A DNA stretch of 13,003 nt from Bacteroidota bacterium (GTDB lineage Bacteria; Bacteroidota; Bacteroidia; Flavobacteriales; Flavobacteriaceae). The notes beneath the pieces were generated by a model. That model was given only the letters and a program-made list of their open reading frames with translations, was not told the DNA's origin and searched no databases. This document shows positions 1,222 to 8,569 of this stretch, one piece after another (the first letter of the stretch is position 1; the number at the start of each line of letters is the position of its first letter). The stretch covers positions 1 through 13,003 of the forward strand of contig JAHZIZ010000165.1 in the NCBI GenBank assembly GCA_022601215.1, given 5' to 3'. Made by a program: the position numbers and the translations under genes.

Positions 1222-1239
1222 ATACCCTCTATTGGGTAT
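1222..1239. promoter_or_regulatory. Operator 1 of a four-site family (ATACCC-N6-GGGTAT)
   Basis: A perfect inverted repeat, ATACCCTCTATTGGGTAT, lies just after the response regulator stop. Its inner 16 bases (TACCC-N6-GGGTA) fit the 7-2-7 heptamer spacing known for NarL-family sites. It ends exactly 22 bases before a TAnnTTTA box (1262-1269), which centres it near -42, the position of an activator that contacts RNA polymerase. There is no T-run, so it is not a terminator. Binding by the local regulators is inferred. Confidence 0.8.
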
Positions 1240-1261
1240 GGTCTGCTCACCATCCACATGG

Positions 1262-1269
1262 TACATTTA
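1262..1269 (+). promoter_or_regulatory. -7 box of the promoter for the 1287 gene
   Basis: TACATTTA matches the Bacteroidota -7 consensus TAnnTTTG at all but the last base. It starts 23 bases after the last base of operator 1, the same offset as in the three related promoters. Transcription should begin around 1273, leaving a short leader before the ATG at 1287. No -33 TTG is evident, which fits an activator-dependent promoter. Confidence 0.65.
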
Positions 1270-1286
1270 TTCTCTAAAATGCAACC

Positions 1287-2144
1287 ATGAAAAATGTATC
1301 CAAAGTAATTTCGTTGATGAGTATTATGCTTATCGCAATGTCATCTTTTAGTCAAGGCAAAGTCGCTAGTACAAGAAACATCATATCTACCGAAGTAGGC
1401 ACTACACAATTTATGAATATAGCCACTGATGGAAATAGAGTTTCACAAGACAAAACTCCTATTCAGAAATATTTAATGATCGACGAAATTTCGCTGTATG
1501 GAGCTGGGAATATTCTTGGACTGGTAACCGCTTCAGAAGACATCGAAGAGAACGCAGCTCCTACAGGTAGTATAGGGCTTAACATGAAATCAGACAAATT
1601 GACGATTGATTTGTTCTATTCATTAAACGCTAAGCAAAAGGTCACTATAAACACCCTAGCTCAATTTGGTAACACCCTGATAAACCCAAATATTGGTGGA
1701 CACGCCTTTACACTTCATATTACGGGACAATACAATCAATATGTTGGCTTTCAATCAAGTTTTCGAGTTTCAGATAACATCTATGTTCTAAACGAAGAAG
1801 AAATAGACGCCTCTCCTATTGCTTTGCGATTTGGTGGCTATGTCCGCCCATTTACTTTTCCAGATTCTGCCAACGGTAACGAAATTCAGGTATCATTATC
1901 TCTTGATTTTACTCATAGAAATGTACTAGGAGATTTCAGAAATGTTACGCGTGAAGTTGAAGGAAAAACACTAGGCCGCAGCTACAATAGTCTTGATCTT
2001 ACGTTGAGCACTTATTTAAATGATGTTCGCATTTATGCTCAAGGTACATTTAGTAAAAAAGGAGAATTTCTAATTCCAGGATATAGTGGAGCGCAAATTA
2101 CTTTAGGGCTTGATGTCTCAGGAGATCTGATCTCTTTAAAATAA
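1287..2144 (+). CDS. Secreted, probably outer-membrane-associated protein of unknown function
   Basis: I do not recognise the family. The 285-residue protein starts with a signal peptide (hydrophobic stretch ISLMSIMLIAMSS, likely cleavage after SFSQ near residue 22). The mature part is rich in alternating polar/hydrophobic stretches (for example SKIDLF-like segments around 105-115, HAFTLHITGQYNQYVGFQSS around 139-158, and EIQVSLSLDFTHRN around 199-212). This suggests a beta-rich fold, possibly a small beta-barrel or a peripheral outer-membrane protein, but the C-terminus (DLISLK) lacks the usual terminal aromatic residue. It has its own promoter with operator 1, so it should be controlled together with 2199, 2660 and 4142. 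It sits between the response regulator and the orphan LuxR gene, suggesting a target or a modulator of the signalling pathway. The function remains open. Confidence 0.8.
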   Translation: MKNVSKVISLMSIMLIAMSSFSQGKVASTRNIISTEVGTTQFMNIATDGNRVSQDKTPIQKYLMIDEISLYGAGNILGLVTASEDIEENAAPTGSIGLNMKSDKLTIDLFYSLNAKQKVTINTLAQFGNTLINPNIGGHAFTLHITGQYNQYVGFQSSFRVSDNIYVLNEEEIDASPIALRFGGYVRPFTFPDSANGNEIQVSLSLDFTHRNVLGDFRNVTREVEGKTLGRSYNSLDLTLSTYLNDVRIYAQGTFSKKGEFLIPGYSGAQITLGLDVSGDLISLK

Positions 2145-2146
2145 AT

Positions 2147-2164
2147 ATCCCCTTCATAGGGTAT
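2147..2164. promoter_or_regulatory. Operator 2 (ATCCCC-N6-GGGTAT)
   Basis: The downstream half GGGTAT (2159-2164) is identical to that of the other three sites; the upstream half ATCCCC differs from ATACCC at one base. It begins 3 bases after the 1287 gene stop and ends exactly 22 bases before the TAGTTTTG box at 2187. It should control the orphan LuxR gene. Confidence 0.75.
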
Positions 2165-2186
2165 TTTACAATACTCAAACCTCACT

Positions 2187-2194
2187 TAGTTTTG
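2187..2194 (+). promoter_or_regulatory. -7 box of the orphan LuxR gene promoter
   Basis: TAGTTTTG is a perfect match to TAnnTTTG and stands 22 bases after operator 2. It ends only 4 bases before the ATG at 2199, so transcription should begin at or within a base or two of the start codon, predicting a leaderless mRNA. Confidence 0.75.
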
Positions 2195-2198
2195 GGGT

Positions 2199-2594
2199 AT
2201 GAGTTCACTTAAAAAAATCTTAGATGTCATTCATCAAGCGCGGGAACAAGAGCATTCTTTAAACCTTGAAGACACCTTAACCTTATTTGATGCTGTAAAG
2301 CATATTTCACAAGACAGAGCGCTTATTGAAAAAGCTATTTACCTCATATTTCTGATAAAAAAACAGGAACCAAATCTTGACAGACTTACCCATAGAGAAA
2401 ATGAAGTTTTTCGGTTAGTTGGACTGGGGTTCACATCAAGAGAAATTGCCGATCTTCTGTCCATAAGTGAAGCTACAGTGAGCACGCATAGAAAGAAAAT
2501 TATAAAAAAACTGAAACTGGCTGGCGCAGGTCAACTTCAGAAATTAGCCTATCAATATACCAATTCTCAACTCTCAAATAAATATACCCTCTAG
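2199..2594 (+). CDS. Orphan LuxR-type DNA-binding regulator without receiver domain
   Basis: This small protein has 131 residues. Residues 1-60 are predicted helical and match no receiver or ligand domain I know. Residues 63-118 form a LuxR/GerE helix-turn-helix (LTHRENEVFRLVGLGFTSREIADLL, recognition helix EATVSTHRKKIIKKLKL), similar to that of the response regulator at 593-1219. No phosphorylation site is visible, so its activity is probably set by its amount or by a partner. It has its own operator/promoter (operator 2), and operator 3 overlaps its last codons and stop. This layout suggests a relay or feed-forward step: the response regulator turns on this gene, or this gene activates itself. 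No in-frame ATG, GTG or TTG occurs near the start other than the ATG at 2199, so the leaderless start is the only plausible one. Confidence 0.9.
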   Translation: MSSLKKILDVIHQAREQEHSLNLEDTLTLFDAVKHISQDRALIEKAIYLIFLIKKQEPNLDRLTHRENEVFRLVGLGFTSREIADLLSISEATVSTHRKKIIKKLKLAGAGQLQKLAYQYTNSQLSNKYTL

Positions 2595-2601
2595 CGGGTA
2601 T
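2584..2601. promoter_or_regulatory. Operator 3, overlapping the LuxR gene stop
   Basis: The perfect inverted repeat ATACCCTCTAGCGGGTAT covers the last codons and the TAG (2592-2594) of the orphan LuxR gene. It ends exactly 22 bases before TACTTTTA (2624-2631). It should drive the PEGA/beta-barrel operon. The upstream arm and the spacer start (ATACCCTCTA) are identical to operator 1. Confidence 0.8.
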
Positions 2602-2623
2602 TTCACACAGGCATTCCTTCCCA

Positions 2624-2631
2624 TACTTTTA
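2624..2631 (+). promoter_or_regulatory. -7 box of the 2660-4005 operon promoter
   Basis: TACTTTTA matches TAnnTTTG apart from the last base and lies at the fixed 22-base distance from operator 3. The predicted start near 2635 leaves about 25 bases before the ATG at 2660. Confidence 0.65.
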
Positions 2632-2659
2632 CTCCATAACTAAATTAATTCAAATTAAA

Positions 2660-3346
2660 ATGAAAAAACTAGTATTGTATTTAGTCGTTATCATAATGGC
2701 TTCCCCACTGGCAAGTGCCAGCAACTCCCTTGAAGATTTTGGGAAAAAGAAAGTGGAATTAGGCACCTCAGAAGGAGATGCAGAAATCTACATCAATGGA
2801 AAATTAATAGGAAAAGGTTCTGCCGTTGTCACGGTACCAAGTGACGACTGCGTTACAGTTATTGCAAGGAAAGTAGGTTTTCTTACGGAACGTATTGAGT
2901 TTTGCAATAAAAAGAAAATGACAAAACCACCAAAGACCTATTATATTGAGATGCAGCGTGACGACGCGTACGACGCTTCTATCCAAACAGATATAGCCAA
3001 CGTAGATATTGAGGTAAAGGTAGATAAAATGGAAAAAGACAGAGCCTGGAAACTCATTAATCAAATTGTTCTTTCTTATATCGATGTTATTGAAATGACC
3101 GATAAAGAAACAGGATATCTTCGAACTGCATGGTCCTTAAAAACCTTTCGTCAAAATACAGTTCGCACGAGAATAATCATCAAGGAGTCCTCTTCTGACC
3201 CTCTGGTATACAAAATCAAGTTAGTTAGTGAAGCTTCCGGTTTACCCCTAGTAAGCGTTAAGAGCGACGAACTTTTTAAAGAATGGGATCGAGTATTAAG
3301 GAGTTATTCTGATGTTGTTTCAGAATTTCAAGCACGTATCAAATAA
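2660..3346 (+). CDS. Exported PEGA-domain protein with a C-terminal envelope domain
   Basis: The 228-residue product has an N-terminal signal peptide (hydrophobic VLYLVVIIMASPLASA, probable cleavage after ASA near residue 20). Residues about 33-80 look like a PEGA domain: GDAEIYINGKLIGKGSAVV, then a polar turn and VGFLTERIEF, ending in a strand. PEGA domains are small beta-sandwiches found on many bacterial envelope proteins. The C-terminal part (about 125-228; DRAWKLINQIVLSYIDVIEM, DKETGYLRTAW, RTRIIIKE, YKIKLVSEASG) recalls the helix-grip layout of BamC-like domains, but this is only a resemblance by eye. It is first in a probable two-gene operon with the beta-barrel gene 11 bases downstream and is controlled by operator 3. 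Likely role: a periplasmic or outer-membrane-associated structural factor; no specific function is assigned. Confidence 0.85.
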   Translation: MKKLVLYLVVIIMASPLASASNSLEDFGKKKVELGTSEGDAEIYINGKLIGKGSAVVTVPSDDCVTVIARKVGFLTERIEFCNKKKMTKPPKTYYIEMQRDDAYDASIQTDIANVDIEVKVDKMEKDRAWKLINQIVLSYIDVIEMTDKETGYLRTAWSLKTFRQNTVRTRIIIKESSSDPLVYKIKLVSEASGLPLVSVKSDELFKEWDRVLRSYSDVVSEFQARIK

Positions 3347-3357
3347 TTCAATCTAGT

Positions 3358-4005
3358 ATGAAACCGACCAAGATGATTATCTACTTCCTAATAGCATTTG
3401 TGCTATTAGGGATACAGAAACAAATCAACGCTCAAGACATCGCTCCTTCAGTCACGAATGGAAACGCTGGATACGAAGAAAGCAATAAACCCCTTAGAAT
3501 AGGGCTAAAAGTTGGCCTACCTTCAGTATACAGCATTAATTTAGAGTACGTCACACCATTATTGGACCAACGAGTAGCGTTCGCACTTGACTACTTACCT
3601 ATTGGATATTCTAATGAGGATTTATCACTCAAGTTGAGAAACTTTGAAATTGGATCCAATGTATACCTCAACGATACAGGAAAAGGATTATACGGAGCTA
3701 TTAGCTACTTCAAGTTCAATACAAGCGCAGACGTTAACGATGTTGATTTTGACAATGGAACATTCGGACCAGGAGAAACCTCTCTCAAATTTGGAACGTT
3801 CAATGTAAAATTAGGGGCAAAACTAGGGCGCACGTTTTACTTTAGAATAGAAGTAGGTTATGGTTTTGGAAAACTTCCTTCTGAATTAGTAATTACAAGC
3901 ACGGAAGGAATCGGAACCACGACAGAACCTATAGAAGATATTAGTGTCTTAGGAAAATCTGGACTCCCAGTTTTCAATTTTGGATTCGGAATTGGATTCT
4001 TATAG
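3358..4005 (+). CDS. Outer-membrane beta-barrel-like protein
   Basis: This 215-residue protein has a signal peptide (IIYFLIAFVLLG, likely cleavage after INAQ near residue 26). The mature part resembles small Bacteroidota outer-membrane barrels: alternating strands such as RIGLKVGLPSVYSINLEYVTP, RVAFALDYLPIGYS, FEIGSNVYLND, LYGAISYFKFN, FNVKLGAKLGRTFYFRIEVGYGFG, and a C-terminal strand FNFGFGIGFL ending in hydrophobic residues. The barrel call rests on strand pattern and ending, not on a recognised family motif. It starts 11 bases after the PEGA gene stop and has no separate promoter, so the two are almost certainly co-transcribed from operator 3. A physical partnership with the PEGA protein is plausible but inferred. 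A likely terminator follows at 4015-4057. Confidence 0.85.
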   Translation: MKPTKMIIYFLIAFVLLGIQKQINAQDIAPSVTNGNAGYEESNKPLRIGLKVGLPSVYSINLEYVTPLLDQRVAFALDYLPIGYSNEDLSLKLRNFEIGSNVYLNDTGKGLYGAISYFKFNTSADVNDVDFDNGTFGPGETSLKFGTFNVKLGAKLGRTFYFRIEVGYGFGKLPSELVITSTEGIGTTTEPIEDISVLGKSGLPVFNFGFGIGFL

Positions 4006-4014
4006 ACCATGAAG

Positions 4015-4057
4015 ATAGGGAGCATTCTGAAAACGAAAGCTTCCTATTCCAATTTTT
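4015..4057 (+). terminator. Probable terminator after the PEGA/beta-barrel operon
   Basis: ATAGGGAGC (4015-4023) pairs with GCTTCCTAT (4039-4047) over 9 bases, including one G-U pair, with a 15-base loop. A TTTTT run follows at 4053-4057. The gap between stem and T-run makes it weaker than the other terminators in the window. Confidence 0.5.
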
Positions 4058-4067
4058 CTCTATTGAA

Positions 4068-4085
4068 TTACCCGCTAATGGGTAT
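4068..4085. promoter_or_regulatory. Operator 4 (TTACCC-N6-GGGTAT)
   Basis: TTACCCGCTAATGGGTAT has the invariant downstream GGGTAT and an upstream arm that differs at one base; the inner TACCC-N6-GGGTA core is perfect. It ends exactly 22 bases before TAGCTTTA (4108-4115). It should control the lipoprotein gene at 4142. Confidence 0.8.
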
Positions 4086-4107
4086 TTCATTCAGAGTCAT
4101 CAAAACC

Positions 4108-4115
4108 TAGCTTTA
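4108..4115 (+). promoter_or_regulatory. -7 box of the 4142 lipoprotein promoter
   Basis: TAGCTTTA fits TAnnTTTG apart from the last base, at the fixed 22-base offset from operator 4. The expected transcription start is near 4119, giving a leader of roughly 23 bases. Confidence 0.65.
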
Positions 4116-4141: not shown

Positions 4142-5218
4142 ATGTTTAAAATTAACTACTTATTACCCGTATTATTATTCTTATCCCTCTTTCTAGTATC
4201 CTGTGAAGAGGAAGAAGATCCGGATCCAGAACCAGAGCAAGTATCCGTGAATGAAACTTCTATAATACCAACAAGCACCTCTGGAAGACCAAATAACTAT
4301 TTAGGTTGCATCGAAATATCTAGTCGAATCACGACTATTCAAGTTTGGGATCATGGTCAGATTGACGGAGACATTGTATCAATCATAGCCAATGGAAACA
4401 CCATTGTTAATCAACAAGTTCTAGACGGACCGAGCAATCCTATTACAGTAGATTATGATTTTGGTTTCAACGGCTTTAATTATGTCACCCTTTTTGCACA
4501 TAATCTTGGAGACCTTCCGCCCAACACCTGTACCATTTCAATTAACGGTGTAGAGTTTATTCTGGAGGCCAATTTAGATGCCAATGGCTCTGTAGATGTG
4601 ATAGTCGAAGGCTATGGGGTAGATTGCAGTGATGCTGGAACCGATGGCGGTGGAGGCGGTGGAGACGGTTCCTCAACAGGAGACTTGCTCTTTTGGACAG
4701 ACCAAGACTATGGGTGCGGTCCCATTTCAGTTTCATTAAGCGGAGTTGGAAACAGCACGATAAATGGGTTTTACAGTAATGGCACACCCAACTGCAATGC
4801 AACTGGAGCCGGAGGAAACTTCAGCAATTTAAATGCTGGAACCTATTCTTTCACTGCAAGTTGTAATGGCATTGATTGGGATGGTTCTGTTACGGTAGAA
4901 GAAGGAGGATGTACAACACAACAACTCACTTCCAACGGCGGAGGCGGAGGCGGAGGCAGCGGCAATGGAGATGTTAAATTCTGGATCAATCAAGATTTTG
5001 GTTGTGGCCCAATCTCAGTCAATGTAACTGGCGTAGGTGGATCAACTATTACTGGTTTCTTCGGAAGTGCACCGGCATGCAGCAACACAGGAGGAGGTGG
5101 AAACTTCAACAACTTACCTGAAGGTAATTACTCATTTACCGCGAGTTGCTCAAGTCTTAGCTGGAACGGAACAATCACTATTACTGAAGACAGTTGTCTT
5201 CAATTTCAACTAAACTAA
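4142..5218 (+). CDS. Probable surface lipoprotein with two Cys-rich repeat domains
   Basis: The 358-residue product begins with a lipoprotein signal ending in lipobox LVSC (Cys21), followed by CEEEEDPDPEPE. Acidic residues right after the cysteine resemble the surface-export signal described for Bacteroidota lipoproteins, so an outer-face location is likely. Residues about 34-162 form a first domain with three cysteines (56, 130, 162). Then come two tandem copies of an about 82-residue domain (180-262 and 276-357), separated by glycine-rich linkers (six Gly at 169-174, seven Gly at 266-272). Each copy keeps four cysteines (192/218/241/257 and 288/313/336/352) and the motif GCGPISV...G...SFTASC, suggesting two disulfides per domain. 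I do not recognise the domain. It is transcribed from operator 4 and ends before a strong terminator at 5263-5297. Confidence 0.85.
   Translation: MFKINYLLPVLLFLSLFLVSCEEEEDPDPEPEQVSVNETSIIPTSTSGRPNNYLGCIEISSRITTIQVWDHGQIDGDIVSIIANGNTIVNQQVLDGPSNPITVDYDFGFNGFNYVTLFAHNLGDLPPNTCTISINGVEFILEANLDANGSVDVIVEGYGVDCSDAGTDGGGGGGDGSSTGDLLFWTDQDYGCGPISVSLSGVGNSTINGFYSNGTPNCNATGAGGNFSNLNAGTYSFTASCNGIDWDGSVTVEEGGCTTQQLTSNGGGGGGGSGNGDVKFWINQDFGCGPISVNVTGVGGSTITGFFGSAPACSNTGGGGNFNNLPEGNYSFTASCSSLSWNGTITITEDSCLQFQLN
4679..5212 (+). repeat. Tandem duplication encoding two Cys-rich domains
   Basis: Copy A is 4679-4927 and copy B 4967-5212, separated by a Gly-rich linker. The aligned protein copies share G-D-x-x-F-W, Q-D-Y/F-G-C-G-P-I-S-V, G-V-G-x-S-T-I-x-G-F, G-G-N-F-x-N-L, G-x-Y-S-F-T-A-S-C and W-x-G-x-x-T. 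Synonymous differences are frequent, so the duplication is old rather than recent. Confidence 0.85.
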
Positions 5219-5262
5219 TTTGTATTAGCCATTATTATGTTTTGTTAGTTTCTGTTTAAAAG

Positions 5263-5297
5263 AGACCTCCTCTTCAAGAATACGGAGAGGAGGTTTT
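5263..5297 (+). terminator. Intrinsic terminator after the 4142 gene
   Basis: ACCTCCTCTTC (5265-5275) pairs with GGAGAGGAGGT (5284-5294) over 11 bases with one G-U pair and an 8-base loop, followed by TTTT. It separates the 4142 gene from the lipoprotein gene at 5338, so the latter needs its own promoter or read-through. Confidence 0.75.
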
Positions 5298-5337
5298 ACC
5301 AAACACCAACAAAGACATTAATTATATCTATTTAACT

Positions 5338-6523: not shown

Positions 6524-8569
6524 TTAATTAACAGCTGGTAAGTTGCTGTAATCTTTACTGTAGTTTAACATTTGCTCAGAAAAACCTGCAGTGTTGTCTA
6601 TACTAAAACCTGTAATCTCTCCTGCGTCATTCATTTGCGGTACGATCACTGGATTTACAAAACCACTGTAAGGAGCAGATGTAAACTGCTTATTACGTTC
6701 CAATACTTCTGCGTGAATAGTCTGATCAACTTTCACTCCGTAGCCTTCTACTAACGCTTCAACGGCAGCATAATCTCCTTCCGATTTAATACGCTGTGTT
6801 TCTCTTAATAATTGGCCAAATAAATCGTGTAGCTTCGCATAGTCATTGATATTGAAGTAAGTTTTACCATCTCGGGTTACTTTTTCAATCACATTTTCTG
6901 CCTGCCCTTTTTCAAAAGCCCAAGCCGAAACCCATTGACGGTTACGCATATGTGCCTCTTCTACATCATCTCCAAGATTTAAACGAATTAATTGCGTCAT
7001 TAATCCATTTCGGATATATCCATCAAAAGCTGCTTTACCAACTTTCTCCCAATCTTCAACGAGTCCAAGTTCTTGCAATTTTGGATTGTATAAATAATAT
7101 AAGCCTACTAAATCTGCTCGACCTTCTTCTAAAGTAGATGCATAATTTTTAAGGGTTTCTTTAGTTTCACCAACGCCAGGGTTTAATTGTCCAGAAGCAT
7201 GACCAATTACCTCGTGCAAGGCTGTGTGCAATTTATCACCTAACTGACCGTGGGCCTCCTCCAAAGCTAACTCTTCCTCATCATGTACAAACTCTTGTAA
7301 TCGTCCAGAGCTCCCTGCATTATTATAAGCATGGATAATATTTCCTAAAGAAACGGACTTACTTCCTACAGCAGCACGAATCCAGTTAGCATTAGGCAGA
7401 TTAACACCAATAGGTGTACTAGGTGAAGCATCTCCAGCTTCTCCTGCTACGTTTACCACCTTGTAAGTTACCCCAACTACATTCTTCTTTTTATGGGCAT
7501 CCATTAAAGGGGAATTATCTTCAAACCATTGTGCGTTCTCCGACAAAACTTCCATCTTCTGTGACATATCAAAATCTTTAATCTGCACGATAGTTTCATA
7601 AGAACCTCTATATCCTAAAGGATCATTATATACTTCAATAAAACTATTGATATAATCAATATTCCCATCTGTGGCAGCTGTCCAAGCTACGTTGTAGTCA
7701 TCCCAAGTTTGTAAATCTCCAGTTTGATAATACTTAATTAATAACCCTAAAGCGTCTCCTTGCGCTTGGTTTTCAGCAACACCCTGTGCCTTTTCCAACC
7801 AAACAACAATTTTATCAATAGCAGCACCGTACAAGCCTCCCGACTTATAAACGCGCTCTTTTAACACCCCATTCTCTTTTACCAACTGAGAATTCAATCC
7901 ATAAGACAGAGGCTTGTCTGCATTAGGTGATTTCTTCTGTTTGTAGAAATTAACGACATCATCATTAGTAACATTTGGTCCATAAAAATTTACAGCAGAC
8001 AGTGCTACATTATCAACTCCTTTAGCCTGATTTACTTTCTTAGCATCTTTATCATTAAACAACACATCAAAAGCTTCTCCCTCTAACGTTGTATTAGTCG
8101 CAGCCAATAACTCTTTCAAGTAATCTGACGTAAACTCCGGTTTCATCTTATCATTAGAATAATGATGGTGAATTCCATTGGCAAACCACAGTCGTTTTAA
8201 ATACGTTTCAAACTGATTCCATCCCTCTACATTTTTATCACCTTCATAAGTGGTATAAATATTCTCGAAAGCTTTACGAATGGTTAAGTTATGGCGATAG
8301 TTTTGATCCCACATGATATCACGTCCCGCCAATCCGGCTTGCGTGAGATAGTAGACCAATTTTTGCTCTTTTAGAGTTAAGTCTTCAAATCCTGGGATTT
8401 GATAACGAAGTACTTTAATATCGTTAAATTGTTCTACTTGATAGTTAAAGGCTTCTTCTGTAGCGATTTGTGTCGTTTCTTCTTTAGGAGTTGCATCTTT
8501 TTTTACATCTCCACAAGAGAACAACATAAGGCTTCCAAGAGCCATTATGAAAAACTTGTTATGTTTCAT
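6524..8569 (-). CDS. Exported dipeptidyl-peptidase III-like (M49) zinc peptidase lipoprotein
   Basis: The 681-residue protein carries both hallmarks of peptidase family M49. The first is HEVIGH (452-457), giving zinc ligands H452 and H457 and catalytic E453. The second is EEGRAD (481-486), with E482 as the expected third zinc ligand. Length fits the family (about 670-740). Conserved surroundings include LHTALHEVIGHASGQL and YASTLEEGRADLVGLYYLYNP. The family removes N-terminal dipeptides from short peptides. Unlike the cytosolic eukaryotic enzyme, this one starts with a lipoprotein signal (LMLFSC, Cys19), so it should be anchored in the envelope, probably facing the periplasm since no acidic run follows the cysteine. 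A likely role is peptide breakdown for nutrition. A -7 box (8594-8601) lies upstream on the same strand. Confidence 0.92.
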   Translation of the reverse strand: MKHNKFFIMALGSLMLFSCGDVKKDATPKEETTQIATEEAFNYQVEQFNDIKVLRYQIPGFEDLTLKEQKLVYYLTQAGLAGRDIMWDQNYRHNLTIRKAFENIYTTYEGDKNVEGWNQFETYLKRLWFANGIHHHYSNDKMKPEFTSDYLKELLAATNTTLEGEAFDVLFNDKDAKKVNQAKGVDNVALSAVNFYGPNVTNDDVVNFYKQKKSPNADKPLSYGLNSQLVKENGVLKERVYKSGGLYGAAIDKIVVWLEKAQGVAENQAQGDALGLLIKYYQTGDLQTWDDYNVAWTAATDGNIDYINSFIEVYNDPLGYRGSYETIVQIKDFDMSQKMEVLSENAQWFEDNSPLMDAHKKKNVVGVTYKVVNVAGEAGDASPSTPIGVNLPNANWIRAAVGSKSVSLGNIIHAYNNAGSSGRLQEFVHDEEELALEEAHGQLGDKLHTALHEVIGHASGQLNPGVGETKETLKNYASTLEEGRADLVGLYYLYNPKLQELGLVEDWEKVGKAAFDGYIRNGLMTQLIRLNLGDDVEEAHMRNRQWVSAWAFEKGQAENVIEKVTRDGKTYFNINDYAKLHDLFGQLLRETQRIKSEGDYAAVEALVEGYGVKVDQTIHAEVLERNKQFTSAPYSGFVNPVIVPQMNDAGEITGFSIDNTAGFSEQMLNYSKDYSNLPAVN

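Follow-up and report, generated by a model that had tools for sequence, protein, structure and literature searches.

The DNA considered here is an entire contig (C336; JAHZIZ010000165.1 of assembly GCA_022601215.1) from a marine member of the Flavobacteriaceae whose genome is 80% complete in 467 contigs, and this whole stretch of 13,003 nucleotides is called the window below. Behind a gene for a NarL-type response regulator (RR), it holds four inverted repeats of the form ATACCC-N6-GGGTAT, one of them with a mismatch, each followed at the same distance by a putative promoter box. The question raised by this locus is which protein reads these repeats and what it controls from them. We consider it probable that the RR does so, as the activator of an autoregulated and locally clustered two-component regulon.

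Operators at a fixed distance from the -7 box

Direct reading of the window gives four units, all on the + strand, made up of the operator (ACCC or CCCC, six bases and GGGTAT), 22 bases, and a box TAnnTTT(A/G). Operator 1 (1222-1239, ATACCCTCTATTGGGTAT) starts two bases past the stop codon of the RR gene, and its box (1262-1269, TACATTTA) would give a leader of 13 nt to the gene of the exported protein OMP285. Operator 2 (2147-2164, ATCCCCTTCATAGGGTAT), in which position 3 is C instead of A, precedes the gene of the orphan LuxR/GerE protein HTH131, and its box (2187-2194, TAGTTTTG) makes position 2199, the A of the start codon, the predicted +1. Operator 3 (2584-2601, ATACCCTCTAGCGGGTAT) overlaps the 3' end of the HTH131 gene and lies ahead of the P228-P215 pair (box at 2624-2631, TACTTTTA; predicted leader of 24 nt), and operator 4 (4068-4085, TTACCCGCTAATGGGTAT) precedes LP358 (box at 4108-4115, TAGCTTTA; predicted leader of 22 nt). 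These coordinates and the exact 22-base gap at all four sites are as the original prediction had given them.

The boxes follow the Bacteroidota sigma-A -7 consensus, TAnnTTTG, in that TAnnTTT is followed by A or G at all four sites; among 40 matches with spacing 22, obtained with a pattern that allowed A or G only, the last base was A in 19 and G in 21. In Flavobacterium psychrophilum such boxes extend from -12 to -5 (PMC9723704). With that numbering the operator spans -52 to -35 and sits in place of the -33 element, and its centre is computed at -43.5, rather than at the -42 proposed originally, and within the range of -41 to -45 of class II-like positions. The suggested likeness to NarL sites held for the 7-2-7 geometry and for TACCC/GGGTA, and is incomplete at heptamer positions 6 and 7, the heptamers TACCCTC and TACCCGC agreeing only in part with the NarL consensus TACYYMT (PMC4886647).

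The palindrome alone is unremarkable, as six copies with up to two mismatches occur in the window against 3.08 expected, and 23 of 200 shuffles reach six. What stands out is its coupling to the box. With a strict site defined as the exact ACCC-N6-GGGTAT-N22-TAnnTTT and the reversed pattern as control, the 249 family genomes gave 80 matches, spread over 46 of them, versus 2 reversed; a scan of nine genomes of the genus that left the first A free gave 18 versus 0, with six genomes positive. In a phylum-wide sample of 296 genomes, 13 matches in 10 genomes were found versus none in the control, and these included six non-family genomes, all of the same class. Two loci from two genomes of one genus in another family of this class (L221 and L222) carry the operator 15-18 nt 5' of related proteins of 78 and 82 aa, because of which we take the design to reach beyond the Flavobacteriaceae. 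Within the source genome the exact pattern is limited to three window sites; the fourth departs from it by one mismatch, and a scan of that genome allowing up to two mismatches gave no enrichment (58 versus 92 reversed).

The spacing is rigid. When it was left free between 12 and 32 bases in 110 genomes, 40 of 52 matches fell at 22, four at 21 and none at 23 (binomial p 1.5e-42, assuming equal use of the 21 spacings), or 37 of 49 at 22 once the three window matches are removed. The same rigidity appeared in 46 loci (L120-L164 and L194; 521 kb, window excluded) chosen by their neighbouring RR alone, one scan of named genomes having given 80 loci, the best 80 of 337, and L120-L164 holding RR relatives of Flavobacteriaceae or labelled just Flavobacteriales, Bacteroidetes or uncultured bacterium. 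In these 46 loci there are 33 strict sites, and the palindromes with no more than one mismatch number 88 when each is counted once; a relaxed box, in either orientation, lies at offset 22 for 72 of the 88, every other offset being used at most seven times. With the window included the count is 76 of 92 distinct palindromes, and the 534 kb then covered hold 36 strict sites versus 0 reversed. Of 48 distinct sites, all but 2 lie at least partly outside any open reading frame (ORF).

Conservation at orthologous promoters is confined to particular bases. Pairwise identity among 11 HTH131 promoters (of 13, two with other spacing being omitted) and 12 LP358 promoters is 95-96% at the fixed operator bases and 93-100% at the TA and TTT of the box, and only 27-30% over the last 17 bases of the spacer. 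The spacers had been described as unrelated, which is true of these 17 bases and not of the first five, which are T-rich and 0.57-0.63 identical in the same two promoter sets. The absence of a -33 TTG, also part of the original prediction, applies to the four window sites and does not extend to all others, as TTG adjoins GGGTA in 9 of 81 distinct strict sites; the stretch after GGGTA shows no excess of this triplet in those 81 sites (11 versus 19 in an equal stretch further down). Site-box pairs are thus not scattered at random, as judged from the reversed-pattern, RR-locus and spacing controls, and sites are kept at orthologous promoters in relatives. A chance origin was rejected by the reversed-pattern, shuffle and free-spacing controls, and because of these controls and the free-spacing result we regard the operator, the 22 bases and the box as a real promoter design.

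The proposed activator and other candidate readers of the operator

The RR (593-1219, + strand; Response_reg and GerE in Pfam) combines a receiver and a GerE helix-turn-helix in one protein and has a HisKA_3-type partner kinase, as do members of the NarL/FixJ family. Its nearest solved structures are those of VraR, DesR, NarL and DevR (PDB), and none of the 25 NCBIfam models listed for it reaches its cutoff. The kinase gene (3-596, + strand; HisKA_3 and HATPase_c in Pfam) has its 5' end cut by the contig edge; a full-length relative (L120:4253-6004) carries TPR_12, HisKA_3 and HATPase_c, and hydropathy gives five kinase relatives one membrane span ahead of the kinase part.

The RR and the sites go together. 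Orthologues (E<=1e-45) occur in 56 of the 249 family genomes, and 29 genomes have both an orthologue and a strict site, 27 the RR only, 17 the site only and 176 neither (p 2e-11). Out of 63 distinct RR proteins, 41 have at least 68% identity, the window's protein being counted, and behind 34 of these a palindrome lies no further than 1.2 kb past the RR stop codon, a distance before which a few RR loci end; base-shuffled stretches contained one in 4 of 1260 cases. As recognition helix, 32 of the 41 have STVEKHRKN, and the others STIEKHRKN, STVETHRKN, STIETHRKN or TTVETHRKN. In many relatives a further site lies 5' of the kinase-containing operon, its box often without the first T and its gap still of 22 bases, an arrangement that suggests autoregulation of the RR-kinase operon. 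The genes directly behind this upstream operator vary among relatives, the first one in Aquimarina sediminis (L126:2406-3476) encoding a C39-like cysteine peptidase (PF13529), and at four loci (L140:2329, L149:1004, L152:819 and L154:2268) the upstream operator puts the predicted +1 on an ATG.

We propose that the TPR-bearing HisKA_3 kinase would phosphorylate the adjacent RR, that a dimer of the RR would bind the 18-bp inverted repeat ATACCC-N6-GGGTAT (7-2-7) centred at -43.5, and that the bound protein would recruit, from one fixed face, sigma-A polymerase to TAnnTTTG-box promoters that mostly lack a -33 TTG. The targets would be exported envelope proteins and HTH131, with its predicted leaderless mRNA and weak distal half-site, together with the kinase/RR operon itself in relatives and a small RNA in trans.

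Several observations weigh against assigning every site to this RR. Among RRs below 68% identity just 7 of 22 have a downstream palindrome; a strict site is missing from 27 of the 56 RR genomes, and an RR orthologue from 17 of the 46 site genomes, one of which (G112) has next to its site a partial match (54% identity) that looks like a gene divided by a contig edge. The sites of genome G054 precede an LP358-like gene and a small RNA, the best RR relative there being only 36% identical, and these sites are probably served by other NarL or LuxR-type proteins. Some sites adjoin other LuxR-type genes (G129, G047), because of which several regulators may share the operator. Finally, the window's own kinase is cut by the contig edge, so that the promoter of its operon lies outside the readable sequence.

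The alternative that survives best builds on these points: the operator would be an element shared across the family and read by several NarL/LuxR-type regulators, this RR among them. It is favoured by the 16 of 46 site genomes that have neither an RR orthologue nor a split copy, by the sites adjoining other LuxR genes, and by genome G094, which lacks an RR orthologue and whose six sites (L214-L219) show a distinct extended form of the palindrome, ACCCTC in five and AGGGTAT in five, as would fit an extended half-site belonging to another regulator. The strong local concentration of sites at the locus of the RR speaks against it, and we hold this alternative to be possible but doubtful; it widens the two-component explanation and does not exclude it.

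It appears unlikely that the operator is bound chiefly by the orphan HTH131 and not by the RR. HTH131 does carry a GerE domain, the core of its recognition helix, THRK, is invariant in 13 sequences and shares HRK with the RR, and two sites flank its gene in the window and in several relatives. Against this, sites with spacing 22 persist behind the RR in at least eight loci in which no HTH131 was detected (L123, L128, L133-L135, L138, L150 and L151), and HTH131 is rarer than the sites, as strong matches (E<=1e-26) number 6 in 60 relatives, all within the genus, although it is also present at RR loci of other genera, Marinirhabdus and Dokdonia among them. Still less probable, in our view, is a repressor site. 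As the operator touches or covers part of the -33 region, polymerase could be blocked by whatever binds there, but TTG is absent from most of the promoters, so low basal activity is expected in any case, and repression tolerates shifts in operator position, while the distance to the box is base-exact, as expected for a contact with polymerase. Least credible of all is a reading of the inverted repeats at the RNA level, as hairpins or intrinsic terminators that belong to the upstream genes: as RNA they could fold (-5.0 to -7.4 kcal/mol), stop codons often precede them, T-rich bases follow them in many relatives, and a consensus scan lists site 4 (+) and site 3 (-) as terminator-like, with 9 such hits in the region versus 3.8 expected, but the T run after GGGTAT is of three bases at most at the window sites and missing at site 1, ACCC and GGGT are invariant with no covariation, the broken pair of operator 2 recurs in relatives, and a terminator would not hold a 22-base gap to a -7 box.

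Genes and predicted small RNAs behind the operator

With the RR as the activator, one of its targets in the window would be HTH131 (131 aa; 2199-2594, + strand), a GerE protein (Pfam) with no receiver domain. A Pfam search gave GerE and other helix-turn-helix matches only, and no autoinducer-binding N-terminal domain of the kind that marks a quorum-sensing LuxR protein. The predicted +1 falls within one base of the ATG at 13 of 13 HTH131 loci (at 0 in ten, at +1 in two and at -1 in one), and in all 13 sequences the protein starts line up at this methionine (alignment A1). By comparison, 22 promoters of LP358, P228 and P215 have predicted leaders of 15-27 nt, with one exception of 160. Leaderless mRNAs make up 5.5% of those examined in F. 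psychrophilum (PMC9723704). It is unlikely that a geometry which is base-exact across several genera, even if measured from a predicted start site, is accidental; the HTH131 mRNA may be translated without a leader. In addition, the third operator base differs from A in 10 of 13 HTH131 promoters versus 3 of 75 other sites with a box at 22 (p 1.6e-8), because of which we consider the weak distal half-site a kept feature of this promoter; it may cause HTH131 to respond later, or to need more activated RR.

The remaining targets in the window would be three exported proteins and a lipoprotein, all encoded on the + strand: OMP285 (285 aa; 1287-2144), with a signal-peptide-like start; P228 (228 aa; 2660-3346), which is well conserved, with 64-84% identity to the window copy in an alignment of nine sequences (A2); P215 (215 aa; 3358-4005), probably cotranscribed with P228; and the lipoprotein LP358 (358 aa; 4142-5218), whose lipobox was found by pattern. 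Neither these four nor LP371 have a family above cutoff in Pfam or NCBIfam. The operator stands immediately 5' of LP358 relatives at 12 of 15 loci, the window counted.

Proteins may not account for all the sites. Of 112 distinct sites in the loci examined, 27 are not followed within 110 nt by an ORF of 45 codons that begins with ATG; a simple hairpin finder placed a terminator-like hairpin behind 9 of these 27, most of which stay unexplained. Upstream of ruvB, genomes G252 and G253 have a hairpin and then a terminator behind the box, and the ORF-less sites led to the same small-RNA layout in G054, G073 and Aequorivita todarodis (L131). A search of the ruvB neighbourhood (30 genomes, 29 of them with a match, and 13 further stretches) added G156, G251 and the source genome, and found no small RNA in 9 of the 13 stretches. 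The copy of the source genome (G000:C352, about 13982-14110; L316:1483-1611, + strand) consists of an operator (ATACCTATTATTGGGTAT), 22 bases, a box (TAATTTAG) and a predicted two-hairpin small RNA of 77 nt with the loop TTGAGGAG, about 2.4 kb upstream of ruvB.

The predicted two-hairpin RNAs are of about 65-85 nt, and most have a GGAG loop. The hexamer RRGGAG is present in eight members that were found without requiring it (G000, G156, G251, G252, G253, G054, G073 and Aequorivita). A pattern that required the hexamer gave 6 matches in 397 genomes versus 0 reversed (G054, G073, G202, G599, G578 and G704); G578 and G704 are without the hairpin-and-terminator layout, and the loop motif in G202 and G599 is a selection effect, because RRGGAG was required in that search. 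Departures occur in G076 (hexamer in the terminator loop), in two loci of G087 and one of G060 (TTGGGG) and in G255 (no GGAG). When the upstream half of the operator was dropped from the pattern, 66 genomes gave 10 matches versus 7 reversed, six of the ten being full-operator cases, so that the half-operator pattern alone is not clearly above chance.

Ten members have, in sequence and fold, their own promoter, no ORF and a terminator within about 100 nt, which are the marks of an intrinsically terminated small RNA, and a conserved structure beyond the terminator is present as well. With the terminator taken off, dinucleotide shuffling yields less stable folds than the first hairpin itself (mean z -2.39, combined p 4.6e-8); this p treats the ten members as independent, although G252 and G253 are close. 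Singly, 3 of the 10 are not significant. At least four of the six hexamer bases are unpaired in 10 of 10 members. The arms change and keep their pairing in two groups of four sequences each, with the structure read from those same sequences: 96.9% of cells are paired and 4 of 8 pairs altered on both sides in one (A6), and 88.9% of cells are paired and 8 of 9 pairs altered on both sides in the other (A7), G073 (other loop length) and G000 (a bulge) being left out of the counts. Loop lengths differ in alignments A3-A6, in which MAFFT misaligned the arms. Rfam gave no family above cutoff for 16 loci (E<=0.5) or for the copy of the source genome, which had weak sub-threshold matches only. As to what such RNAs might pair with, the loop complement CTCCYY has a density of 0.50-0.79 per kb up to 60 bases from start codons versus 0.33 per kb at 60-150 bases, a descriptive figure taken from 51 occurrences around 467 ORFs of RR loci.

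Other features lie near the operators. The Rfam DUF805b motif was found close to sites at L031:1321-1356, above cutoff, and at L034:1703-1738, below it. In G179 an operator stands 5' of a caspase-domain protein (L054:1570-2406; PF00656), about 3.7 kb from the RR of that genome. In the window, an inverted repeat noticed by eye 3' of LP358 (5262-5300; CCTCCTCT/AGAGGAGG and then TTTTA) resembles a terminator and by coincidence contains the same hexamer, GAGGAG. Further downstream, on the - strand, a gene of 681 aa (6524-8569), which we take to be DPP3/M49-like, has relatives that point towards the regulon, in convergent orientation, at many of the RR loci.

Known systems and what the design would mean

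The closest parallels to this arrangement are in Escherichia coli, where a single 7-2-7 site suffices for activation by NarL at yeaR-yoaG and by NarL or NarP at ogt1052 (PMC7419079, PMC9314961). The NarL site of yeaR-yoaG is directly upstream of the -35 element (PMC7419079), and in ogt1052 the site is centred at -44.5, which leaves 32 bp to the -10 element (PMC7419079, PMC9314961), close to the 31 bp between centre and box found here. In both systems, then, a single 7-2-7 repeat stands just upstream of the -35 position, and because of these NarL/NarP precedents we take the RR as an activator that would touch polymerase from a fixed position, its promoters possibly working as NarL does at ogt1052. 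The differences are also clear: the promoters have the Bacteroidota -7 box in place of -35 and -10 elements, there is no known link to nitrate, the targets are exported proteins, and one position is reused at many promoters.

Among solved structures, VraR and DesR match the RR best, along almost its entire length, but the sensor here has TPR repeats, in the relative scanned, and their hosts belong to a phylum other than the Bacteroidota. Within the Bacteroidota, FimS/FimR is likewise a two-component pair, and a relative's kinase matches part of the FimS model; identity with FimS was rejected, as the NCBIfam model, whose cutoff is 600 bits, gives 35.5 and covers residues 147-360 only. FimR of Porphyromonas binds directly at the mfa1 promoter and affects fimA via another gene, and the text of that source that was covered makes no mention of an operator motif (PMC1974823).

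For the small RNAs, the nearest likeness would be that of a NarL-family regulator driving a short RNA alongside envelope genes. RprA under RcsB is such a response-regulator-driven small RNA of enterobacteria; unlike it, the small RNAs described here match no Rfam family above cutoff.

To our knowledge, transcription activation in the Flavobacteriaceae is little charted, sequence by itself seldom allows a site to be assigned to a regulator and to a position relative to polymerase, and small RNAs linked to a named regulator are rare in the family. We recognised no description of the operator or of the small RNAs in Flavobacteriaceae in the titles, opening lines of abstracts and passages of the literature searched, which covers subscription papers thinly and does not take in the supplementary small-RNA lists of PMC9723704. 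The proposed type of activator and its position are known; here they go with a promoter class mostly without a -33 element, with the use of one spacing across genera, and with ties to a leaderless regulator and to small RNAs, the last two being predicted. The leaderless mRNA, the recurring weak distal half-site and the small RNAs at other loci go beyond the original prediction.

Taken as a rule, the operator, the 22 bases and the box predict start sites, targets and regulator across many genera, and with them a leaderless regulator mRNA and small RNAs under a named regulator. A bolder reading, which we advance tentatively and rate somewhat short of even, is that one NarL-type RR of marine Flavobacteriaceae, acting through a single rigid promoter design, runs a whole stress circuit of exported proteins, a leaderless LuxR regulator and a small-RNA family. 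If true, the small RNAs of 65-85 nt with a GGAG-type loop in the first hairpin would be a previously undescribed family, and this single-regulator circuit would be a Bacteroidota counterpart, independently reached, of the pairing of an envelope regulator with a repressing small RNA in enterobacteria.

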